DNA from: a virus
Length of the DNA stretch: 47,085 nt
Reading direction: 5' to 3' (one strand)
IMG/VR virus record: IMGVR_UViG_3300022911_000006
Coordinates: 1 to 47,085 of that record
Position numbers and translations under genes: made by a program. The first letter of the stretch is position 1. Each line of letters opens with the position of its first letter. Below, piece after piece: positions 9,124-37,619 of this stretch. A model generated the notes under the pieces. The model was not told the DNA's origin and ran no database searches. It saw nothing but the letters and a program-made list of their open reading frames with translations.

Positions 9124-9846
9124 TTAGCCGTTACCAAAGACGTTTTGAACAGTCTGCGGTGCAGCACCTCCAGTACCGCCAGCAGCTTTCGCATCGGCAG
9201 CACTCTTCGGTACTGGTATACCATTGTCCAATCCTTCCTGGATCTCGTACGGAGTGAACTTCAACTTGGAAGCTTCTTCCGGTACTTGAGTGGACTCATA
9301 GAATGGATTGTCCTCGATAAACTTACCGCGGAAAGTAGCATAGTGCTTGTCCTTGGACTGGCGAACCAGCAGCAACCGGAATGTGAGTTCCTTATTGCCA
9401 AGGAATGGCGCTATCTTCTGCAGGAAGATACGAGACATGTTCTTGTGAACGCCTTCCAGGATCTCCTTCTGAGTGATCTTGGTCGGGTAACTGTTCTCAT
9501 CGATAGGCAACCCTGCAAACACTTCAGCCCAAAGACCTTTCAGGTCTTCACGGGTGTAATACCCGAGCAAGATGTGCATGAGGATACCCTTGGTCTTAGT
9601 AATGTCGGAGTTGACCAGTTCCACTTTCTTCTGCTGCGTGATGTCCTCTTTCTTCGGAGGCAGCGGCGGAAACAAGCGGATTCCACGGGAAGCATCTTCA
9701 ACTACATCATCACTGGCAATGTTCGCAAACATGTTGCCACTGGATGATGCTTTGTCTGATTCCAGGAATGATAACTCCAGCACATTCTTCTCGTCCACGG
9801 ATGCTTTATCCAGGTAGACGCTTTTGTTGATCCCAATTTGTATCAT
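9124..9846 (-). CDS. Replication-block protein of unknown function
   Basis: 240 residues with no named family. Residues 60-190 look folded (a PPLPPKK linker at about 58-64, then alternating helices and strands). The C-terminus is low-complexity Gly/Ala/Asn (AKAAGGTGGAAPQTVQNVFG), like the flexible tail of an ssDNA-binding or assembly protein. It has the best minus-strand promoter in the block, 35 nt upstream. With the neighbouring 268-residue protein it sits between primase and the Sak4-like ATPase, so an ssDNA-handling role is possible but unproven. Confidence 0.6.
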   Translation of the reverse strand: MIQIGINKSVYLDKASVDEKNVLELSFLESDKASSSGNMFANIASDDVVEDASRGIRLFPPLPPKKEDITQQKKVELVNSDITKTKGILMHILLGYYTREDLKGLWAEVFAGLPIDENSYPTKITQKEILEGVHKNMSRIFLQKIAPFLGNKELTFRLLLVRQSKDKHYATFRGKFIEDNPFYESTQVPEEASKLKFTPYEIQEGLDNGIPVPKSAADAKAAGGTGGAAPQTVQNVFGNG

Positions 9847-30835: not shown

Positions 30836-30837
30836 AG

Positions 30838-30910
30838 AACGCTGGACGAGAATCGAACTCGCGACCAGTAGATTTGAAGTCTATCGCTCTACCAACTGAG
30901 CTACCAGCGT
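30838..30910 (-). tRNA. Opal suppressor-type tRNA, anticodon UCA
   Basis: 73 nt with all canonical arms. Acceptor ACGCTGG/CCAGCGT; D stem GCTC/GAGC with loop AGTTGGTA; anticodon arm ATAGA-CTTCAAA-TCTAC with TCA at 34-36 (plus-strand 30875-30877), U33, A37, A38; T-arm GCGAG-TTCGATT-CTCGT; discriminator U73; CCA not encoded. The short variable loop (5 nt) excludes tRNA-Sec. It should read UGA and perhaps UGG. The amino acid is not evident: A1-U72 recalls Trp, U73 recalls Gly or Cys. Pair 27-43 is mismatched (A-C). It lies next to a Pth2-like gene. Confidence 0.88.
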
Positions 30911-30916
30911 ATCCTG

Positions 30917-31219
30917 TTATGGATTCCATAACGGTATATCATCAAAAAGATCGCCATCGTGTAACACGGCACCGGCTACTACACGGTTCTTAAGATCCGG
31001 TTCCTTGAATATCTGCCATGAGTCTGTCCTGGATGCGGCCCACCGAATACGTCGAAACAGTTCTGCCTCATCCGGTACTGCAAGACACTTGAATGTTATA
31101 CGTGACCAATCTACCTTGGGCATAGCCATACCCATGACTGCTGCAATGTGAGCCATCTGTACTGCTTGTACAGCTACACTCACATCAGTCCTAACTAAGA
31201 GGTACAGTCTTTGGGCCAT
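30917..31219 (-). CDS. Pth2-like peptidyl-tRNA hydrolase family protein
   Basis: 100 residues. RLYLLVRTDVSVAVQAVQMAHIAAV (4-28) matches the Pth2 start (VxRxDLxMxxGKxAAQxxHA), and the remainder (ITFKCLAVPDEAELFRRI...KNRVVAGAVLHDGDLFDDIP) follows the Pth2 beta-alpha order. The GK of the canonical active-site loop is replaced, so activity is uncertain. Pth2 frees tRNA from stalled peptidyl-tRNA. The stop is 7 bp before the UCA tRNA 5' end, suggesting co-expression. It may recycle tRNAs during UGA readthrough or counter host tRNA-targeting; both are inference. Confidence 0.68.
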   Translation of the reverse strand: MAQRLYLLVRTDVSVAVQAVQMAHIAAVMGMAMPKVDWSRITFKCLAVPDEAELFRRIRWAASRTDSWQIFKEPDLKNRVVAGAVLHDGDLFDDIPLWNP

Positions 31220-31541
31220 ACTGTGCCATTAGTTTATCGATGTACTTCATGCTGATACCTTCCATGCTTACCTTGGGATTCTTCTTATAGCCACCGTACT
31301 GGGTGCGTGTCATTGCATAGGCTAAGTGAAGATGCCTGAGTTCATGACGGTTCAGGCGTTTACTGGTTTGCTTCATACCCACATTAGCTATCGAGCCATG
31401 TGGCCTATGGAGCTGCAGGTTCAGTTCCTTCTGGTCTGCTGCCAGTTTCTTGATCTGATTGCGGAAATTCTCTTTTGAGCTTTTGTATGCTTTCTGTGCT
31501 GCGAGCATCTCTGGCGAGAGCTGCGATGTTTGGTGTTCCAT
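31191..31541 (-). CDS. Basic His-rich hypothetical protein
   Basis: 116 residues from ATG 31541 (MEHQTSQL). It contains a Lys/Gln-rich coiled segment (AQKAYKSSKENFRNQIKKLAADQKELNLQ) and a His/Arg cluster (RLNRHELRHLHLAYAMTRTQYGGYKKNPK) that resembles nucleic-acid-binding phage proteins. It overlaps the Pth2-like start by 29 nt, and a different reading frame (31405-31641) overlaps its first 137 nt. Confidence 0.6.
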   Translation of the reverse strand: MEHQTSQLSPEMLAAQKAYKSSKENFRNQIKKLAADQKELNLQLHRPHGSIANVGMKQTSKRLNRHELRHLHLAYAMTRTQYGGYKKNPKVSMEGISMKYIDKLMAQYGPKTVPLS

Positions 31542-31641
31542 ATTCTGAGGGGAATTTAGGTATGTATAAATGTTGTTGCAAATTGTCCAGTGTATCAACT
31601 AGCTTCATTGCGGAGAACCCCTCGTTCTGTTGTGTACTCAT
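31405..31641 (-). CDS. Overlapping frame, possible short gene or frameshift leader
   Basis: 78 codons. The first 35 residues (MSTQQNEGFSAMKLVDTLDN...) read like a genuine small protein, but the rest overlaps the next gene in a different frame and ends in a low-complexity tail (DQETGSRPEGTEPAAP) typical of off-frame translation. Either the real product is short, or translation shifts by one base near 31541 into the following frame to make a fused protein. No classic slippery heptamer was found. Confidence 0.35.
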   Translation of the reverse strand: MSTQQNEGFSAMKLVDTLDNLQQHLYIPKFPSEYGTPNIAALARDARSTESIQKLKREFPQSDQETGSRPEGTEPAAP

Positions 31642-37334: not shown

Positions 37335-37619
37335 GTGTTCCTGCTATTGCAACGCACTATGCTTAAACACCTATTTATACTCGCATAGTCGAGTGTGAGA
37401 TTTACCCACGAATGTACCTAATCTGTGAAAATCTATCTGATGCAGCCTATCACGATGTGTGAAGGCGTAGCCCAAAGCCCGTAGTACTGTGGGATGAGTG
37501 CATAGTGAGAGTGAGATGACTAACCTGATATTTCGTACAGCTCAATGAGACAATGAGTTAAGAGCCTATAATGAGCATGTTAGTAGCGAGTGAGGGAACT
37601 GGTGCTCCGTGCATGCGAG
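37335..37619. repeat. Gap with seven RTGAG repeats, possible iterons
   Basis: No gene. Seven ATGAG/GTGAG copies fall in 101 bp: 37494, 37505, 37511, 37545, 37553, 37571 and 37590. Chance would give well under one. Directly adjoining the 3' end of the RepL-like gene, they resemble initiator-binding repeats of plasmid origins. A small ACTCG/CGAGT hairpin lies near 37380-37396. Confidence 0.4.

Follow-up and report, generated by a model that had tools for sequence, protein, structure and literature searches.

The virus contig IMGVR_UViG_3300022911_000006 of IMG/VR, analyzed here over its whole length of 47,085 bp (the window), encodes a transfer RNA (tRNA) with the stop-reading anticodon UCA directly behind a small gene, P0001, whose product is related to Pth2-type peptidyl-tRNA hydrolases. 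Our comparison across phages suggests that suppressor tRNA and divergent Pth2 protein belong together as a single functional unit, which in many phages is gated by the codon that the tRNA reads; we give this reading a probability of roughly 0.55. It is carried by computed observations: the protein has a Pth2 fold, a stop-reading tRNA is its same-strand neighbor in most cases, and the cognate stop lies at codon 2 to 9 of the gene in many phages.

Both ARAGORN and Rfam fold the window tRNA into a cloverleaf with a stop anticodon, as expected of a nonsense suppressor. Its Rfam score (Table 1) is higher than that of the window tRNA-Phe (61.7 bits with RF00005); ARAGORN sets its bounds at 30837-30910(-). 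The ARAGORN label 'SeC' is a mere reflection of the anticodon, as the length of about 73 nt indicates an ordinary class I tRNA. The anticodon loop corresponds to that of a bacterial tRNA-Trp with C34 changed to U, but the acceptor end is unusual. The first-pass annotation, made from the letters alone, had placed the tRNA 7 bp behind the gene. The tRNA and the gene are both real, and the gap between the P0001 stop codon (last base 30917) and the tRNA 5' end (30910) amounts to six bases, such that both are probably on one transcript.

P0001 by itself is a poor query. It matches neither Pfam PTH2 nor any solved Pth2 structure, reaches E 0.086 against PHROG 1866 and finds no relatives in IMG/VR, while tblastn yields 21 phage records, marginal matches in jumbo phages (28-35% identity, E 1e-3 to 0.2). 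Because single-sequence searches are this weak, an alignment was needed to recover the family. Seven of the members of a ten-member alignment match PTH2, and Pth2 structures top the structure matches of its profile. Among 51 family members, 36 match Pfam PTH2 (PF01981) at E <= 0.01, with a best value of 1.2e-12, and 48 match PHROG 1866, a family of unassigned function. Searched against the PDB, the 51-member profile finds 2zv3 as best entry (E 9.3e-8), and its top seven entries are all Pth2 structures. The AlphaFold2 model of P0001, built on the 51-sequence alignment, has a mean predicted local distance difference test score of 96.6 and a predicted template modeling score of 0.88. In a Foldseek search with this model, ranks 1-15 are all Pth2-type structures. 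VIA-align likewise lists Pth2-type structures as its first eight entries, with Z from 15.2 to 8.2 (3erj 15.2, 1q7s 14.7, 1wn2 14.1, 1xty 14.0), whereas the first unrelated entry scores 4.0. From the predicted structure we regard it as certain that P0001 has the Pth2 fold over its whole domain; the similarity to Pth2 noticed in the first pass is thus borne out by the model, Foldseek and VIA-align.

Some Pth2-like genes carry additional parts. In L130, L131, L135, and L147-L150, the gene is extended at the N-terminal side by a conserved stretch of about 90-150 codons. Several jumbo phages with a tRNA-linked copy also have a second, weaker Pth2-like match, residing in longer frames of approximately 190-330 amino acids (Table 1).

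The ten-member alignment led to 65 loci in IMG/VR, 53 of which have a stop-reading tRNA within the fetched flanks. To quantify linkage, we used 59 distinct records found by the protein alone, with regions of up to 20 kb. Any tRNA at all occurs in 54 of these regions, and in 46 of the 54 the tRNA nearest to the gene is stop-reading. All 46 nearest stop-reading tRNAs are on the same strand as the gene and at most 1 kb away from it, the arrangement also seen in the window. Stop-reading tRNAs make up 52 of the 451 tRNAs in the 59 regions; two of those counted as stop-reading have a four-base anticodon in the ARAGORN reading (ttca, ctaa). Both gene orders are found: a tRNA behind the gene follows after a few bases (the window arrangement) or after about 300 bases, and a tRNA in front of it lies 38-190 bases away. 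Outside the anticodon loop the tRNA bodies share little. The standard code fits most of the 59 regions, with the Lak-like L201 as clear exception.

The reverse test started from the tRNA. We searched IMG/VR by pattern for CUA, UCA, and CAU tRNAs and confirmed the loci with ARAGORN; all counts hold among the matches listed. The Pth2-like gene is present at 29 of 88 confirmed CUA loci, in 22 cases within 1 kb and in all 22 on the same strand. It accompanies two of the 14 confirmed UCA loci, at distances of 197 and 122 bases, the UCA pattern being poor (14 of 119 loci confirmed). No copy was found at the 73 confirmed loci of the CAU control tRNAs. A pattern-based scan of 84,980 bacterial and archaeal species genomes revealed a single relative. 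It belongs to a Phycisphaerales metagenome-assembled genome (contig of 4.9 kb), and there, too, a CUA tRNA lies beside the gene. As far as these searches reach, the phage Pth2-like family is almost exclusively viral.

Co-occurrence of tRNA and Pth2 homologue in related phages, on which the first-pass annotation had made its proposal depend, holds well outside the crAss-like phages (46/54 regions, 22/88 CUA loci). On comparative grounds we consider it confirmed that the pairing exceeds chance, and a functional link between stop-reading tRNA and Pth2-type protein appears well supported. One such pair, gp150 of mycobacteriophage Alice and a suppressor tRNA, is visible in the annotated record, where it stands without comment. 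ARAGORN also reads as CUA suppressor tRNAs two genes that are annotated otherwise, in Myrna (L615 1963-2034, annotated Ser) and in Arash (L612 2810-2884, annotated Phe).

Close to the window, the pairing is kept in G004, a 95,585-bp relative found by terminase search (61% terminase identity). G004 retains all three genes of the block, i.e., the tRNA, the Pth2-like gene and a 135-codon gene upstream, with order and strand unchanged. P0001 and its G004 homologue share 29% identity (E 6e-09 in a single comparison, 9.9e-5 in a genome search), and the tRNA-UCA follows about 160 bases downstream. The 135-codon gene has no convincing family match in library searches; against its G004 counterpart L019:6005-6388(-) it shows 37% identity over 126 aligned positions (E 4e-24), with homology starting at an internal Met20. 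The Pth2-like gene is absent from the 28 other terminase-related records, most of which are fragments or distant (30 searched, including the window's own). One of the records, G008, has more than 20 tRNAs, and its fetched part contains neither a Pth2-like gene nor a UCA or CUA tRNA.

Many relatives of P0001 have no start codon at the domain; their frame opens with ATG, a few codons and TAG. We define a strict gate as ATG, 0-7 codons, TAG, and the domain, with no ATG, GTG or TTG between stop and domain. Such a gate is present in 21 of 59, 14 of 33, and 13 of 20 genes of three overlapping sets, 45 distinct genes altogether (examples in Table 1). The UAG is codon 3 or 4 in 40 of the 45 and lies between codon 2 and codon 9 overall; it is followed by A in 37 cases, by G in 8 and never by U or C. 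The stop of a strict gate is always TAG. This preference is also apparent when frames in general are scanned for leaders that lack a start codon in the 12 codons behind them: Pth2-like genes gave 18 TAG, 0 TAA, and 0 TGA, against 14 TAG, 16 TAA, and 11 TGA for leaders of the same type in all other frames together. The whole jumbo genomes G055 and G083 share 214 homologous pairs of open reading frames (ORFs); the Pth2-like pair is the only one in which both members carry a TAG leader and homology sets in at the codon directly behind the stop.

In XacN1 (L006), Stenotrophomonas phage CM1 (L011), and G048 (L101), the Pth2-like domain is preceded, in one fused protein, by a domain with an HD motif that is about 180 residues long. 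These fusions open with ATG-n-TAG as well, and conserved residues follow directly behind; they stay outside the strict count, as later start codons are present. In four genes (L104, L106, L128, W07) a TAG occurs within the domain, additionally or instead. Of 102 family representatives (90% identity level) placed on a tree, 46 have an early UAG, with the HD fusions and some less strict genes counted in; their distribution requires 9 parsimony changes, compared with a mean of 34 in shuffles. Judged from this tree, the gate is kept within clades and was gained or lost several times. Phages with a gated gene mostly use the standard code. Lak phages have ATG-n-TAA upstream, but with start codons after it, and are likewise not part of the strict count. 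In the Lak-type L201, L009, and L013, a tRNA with anticodon UUA, which reads UAA, precedes the Pth2-like gene at a distance of up to about 750 bases; L201 looks TAG-recoded by its coding density.

The stop of the gate generally corresponds to the tRNA: UAG goes with CUA tRNAs in nearly all gated genes, and of the two UCA-linked genes that were found independently, L349 and L441, the former has an early UGA (ATG GAA TCG TGA). The distance can be larger than in the window, as the CUA tRNA is about 3 kb from the gene in GAP32, BF, CBB, Erwinia phage Kaldavass, and XbC2. In Klebsiella phage RaK2, neither a gate nor a CUA tRNA was found by pattern, ARAGORN-read locus or annotation. Several candidates were discarded, namely the CUA tRNAs suggested by a TCTAAA pattern in G071 and G078, which ARAGORN reads as tRNA-Arg(UCU), and a match to a stricter pattern in G078, which is not a tRNA.

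The proposed unit might operate as follows. The host would charge the suppressor tRNA, which would then compete with the release factor at its codon. In gated phages, the Pth2-like protein would be made only when suppression succeeds, and it would then act on the peptidyl (or aminoacyl) form of the suppressor tRNA. Either tRNA dropped off at stop codons would be freed, or suppression would be capped by negative feedback. Peptidyl-tRNA recycling, or a defense against host attack on tRNAs, had been put forward in the first pass, and both may be purposes of the pairing. The window would represent the ungated form, with the Pth2-like gene followed by the UCA tRNA six bases on. We place it in the unit because the family contains the same pair in the same order and spacing, in an ungated group whose tRNA follows the gene after 1-50 bases; from this group the window differs in its anticodon UCA. 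A more specific version is a two-gene control loop, in which the main target of the suppressor would be the early stop of its partner, while the partner, a remodelled Pth2 protein, would remove or disarm the charged suppressor and so keep suppression useful and non-toxic. Such a loop would have arisen or been kept in crAss-like, enterobacterial, Xanthomonas, mycobacterial, and huge phages, mostly with UAG and in a few with UGA. We advance it tentatively, at somewhat less than even odds.

Other explanations have to be weighed against this unit. The Pth2-like protein might support recoding by recycling tRNA lost while late genes read UGA as an amino acid (code 4), and UCA tRNAs along with UGA recoding are known in some crAss-like phages, e.g., the Lera phage, according to PMC12386605. 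In the window, though, 23 of 49 ORFs of at least 100 amino acids (greedy set) end in UGA, and no internal UGA interrupts the long ORFs of G004 (including those of 3899, 1661, and 1573 amino acids) or terminase and portal of contig L001. Reading UGA as sense hardly changes coding density (0.859 to 0.865 in G004, 0.962 to 0.966 in L001), and internal TGA supported by homology is no commoner than the TAA controls (9 vs 18 in real-gene sets). In-frame UGA within conserved genes, the mark of code 4, thus found no support in these sets; from the intact long ORFs and the control counts we reject recoding in late genes, and a wide decoding of UGA in this phage is not supported. For this phage group, sequence comparison leaves recoding support largely refuted and very improbable. 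Backup stops are mixed as a sign of leaky UGA termination: a TAA or TAG follows within ten codons in 11 of 16 UGA genes of G004 but in 3 of 23 of the window. Given the many unprotected UGA stops in the window phage, some control of the tRNA is likely. Mere clustering, i.e., tRNA and gene being neighbors in tRNA-rich regions by chance or common descent, would suit the tRNA arrays of many of these phages. Yet the nearest tRNA is stop-reading far beyond the regional share of such tRNAs (46/54 against 52/451), the gene is missing from all CAU loci among the matches listed, and the linkage also holds in regions with a single tRNA. On this comparative evidence we consider clustering refuted, with a negligible residual probability.

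The gate itself could be read without any suppression. Translation might begin behind the stop from an unusual start codon, in most genes AUU, for which infC is a precedent, and ATG-n-TAG would then be a leader or minigene controlling initiation, with no readthrough involved. ATT directly follows TAG in 23 of the 45 distinct cases, and GTG does so in the mycobacteriophages Alice and Myrna; the other 22, however, have AAT, GTA, GTT, AAC, AGC, ATC, ATA, ACG or AAA at this position, and conserved residues begin right behind the stop. Moreover, any stop would serve a leader, whereas that of the strict gate is always TAG. We therefore regard initiation past the stop as unlikely. Also unlikely, though slightly less so, is a role of the suppressor tRNA as a weapon or anti-defence device that alters host proteins by readthrough, with the Pth2-like protein shielding phage translation. 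PMC12386605 suggests a weapon role for suppressor tRNAs without recoding, and this would suit phages with few UAG stops of their own (22 of 213 in G055, 19 of 214 in G083). It leaves the cognate stop inside the Pth2-like gene unexplained, and the window phage ends many of its own genes in UGA.

The proposal of a functional unit, gated in many phages, has to face several observations that weigh against it. Some concern the active site. The conserved lysine of the GK loop, the Asp of the RDAG segment and the following Thr have active-site roles in Pth2. In the profile alignment, the phage subfamily has a gap opposite the GKGK loop of 2zv3 throughout, and the Glu of F-x-E-P-D aligns family-wide with the Asp of RDAG; P0001 furthermore has Val81 where the family keeps a near-invariant Thr. 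The first pass had seen an altered GK in P0001 and supposed a new role; the loop is indeed changed, as a trait of the whole subfamily and not of P0001 in particular. P0001 hence lacks three active-site features of Pth2, and a binding role without catalysis is conceivable; the window copy has lost catalytic residues, and any hydrolase activity is putative. Other observations concern the gate. No early in-frame UGA exists in P0001, and the window, G004, and L441, all with UCA tRNAs, have no gate, in contrast to the 45 distinct relatives. In L349, the possible starts GTG TTG stand directly after the TGA. For five gated genes the searches gave no stop-reading tRNA, namely those of G078 and the fragments G070 and G076, and W05 and W06, where the pattern was narrow. 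G061 and G071 offer only CUA tRNA-like stretches with a poor D arm, undetected by default ARAGORN and Rfam. Finally, only about a quarter of the CUA tRNAs, among the matches listed, have the gene within 1 kb, and strong suppression would be costly for the window phage because its more than 20 UGA-ended ORFs mostly lack a backup stop.

Compared with archaeal and eukaryotic Pth2 (PF01981; 3erj, 1q7s, 1xty, 2zv3), the phage family has the fold over its whole length (Z 14-15), an A-x-Q-x-x-H segment and profile similarity. It differs by its size of about 100 amino acids, the shortened GK loop, the Glu opposite the RDAG Asp, its nearly exclusive occurrence in viruses and its tie to stop-reading tRNAs. 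The gate resembles prfB, the RF2 gene, which is autoregulated via an in-frame UGA and +1 frameshifting and thereby senses release factor. An early in-frame stop ties synthesis to the balance of termination and bypass in both, and the logic of the gate would be that of prfB turned round; here, however, the stop is a plain UAG, the reader is a neighboring tRNA gene and the gene product folds like a peptidyl-tRNA hydrolase. With code-15 and code-4 phages (Lak, crAss-like, Lera), as described in PMC7162821 and PMC12386605, the family shares a phage-encoded suppressor tRNA, but there the recoded stop occurs in many genes, whereas the Pth2-like gene is the sole supported target here (G055/G083).

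The jumbo phages XacN1 and Atu_ph07 are likewise reported to encode 'orphan' suppressor tRNAs as well as a peptidyl-tRNA hydrolase. The accessible text of the two papers (PMC5852040, PMC6102473) lists them apart and names neither linkage nor target, and the XacN1 authors state that target genes of the suppressor tRNAs could not be identified (PMC5852040). In our analysis, ATG AAG TAG stands just before the annotated start of XacN1 ORF364, which is HD-like plus Pth2-like. The literature has yet to explain why suppressor tRNAs occur in lytic phages with standard code: the XacN1 authors found no targets, and the 2025 crAss-like study asks for the purpose of 'non-functioning' suppressor tRNAs (PMC12386605). 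A literature search covering few subscription papers and bioRxiv preprints found no report of the linkage or the gate. A conserved partner gene with a matching stop turns the question of the orphan tRNAs into a direct test. If true, the proposed unit would explain why standard-code phages keep them, and it would represent a new type of gene gating, based on stop-codon suppression, and assign a new role to the Pth2-type fold. The gate also offers a reason for truncated or missing annotation of the gene, as in GAP32_397, Serratia phage BF, and Salmonella phage Arash.

Table 1. Features of the window block, leaders of gated relatives and second Pth2-like matches.
Feature	Location	Strand	Evidence or sequence
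tRNA, anticodon UCA, stop-reading	30838-30910	(-)	Rfam RF00005, 68.7 bits
Anticodon TCA	30875-30877	(-)	ARAGORN; loop CUUCAAA; CCA not encoded
P0001, Pth2-fold protein, 100 amino acids, ATG start, TAA stop	30917-31219	(-)	ORF and fold evidence
Conserved gene, 135 codons from TTG, upstream of and overlapping P0001 start	31191-31598	(-)	G004 homology
Leader, L105			ATG AAA TAG ATT AAC
Leader, L114			ATG ACA CAT TAG GTA
Leader, Acinetobacter phage ME3			ATG ACT TAG ATT
Leader, Cronobacter phage GAP32 and Pectobacterium phage CBB			ATG GCA CAA TAG AAT
Leader, Serratia phage BF			ATG ACG CAC TAG
Leader, Salmonella phage Arash			ATG CTG TAG AAC
Second, weaker Pth2-like match, G054	C1:36340-36642		
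Second, weaker Pth2-like match, G083	C1:190929-191231		
Second, weaker Pth2-like match, also in G038, G055, G059, G069, G073, W03, W05			

Apart from the block, the window contains crAss-like terminase and portal genes (phrog_6681, phrog_6547) and codes for a family A DNA polymerase and a DNA ligase. A tRNA-Cys proposed by ARAGORN at 9386-9480 (+) is probably false, being antisense to a 240-amino-acid ORF and without Rfam support. At 37335-37394 (-), a Pistol ribozyme scores 47.6 bits, compared with a gathering score of 34.5.
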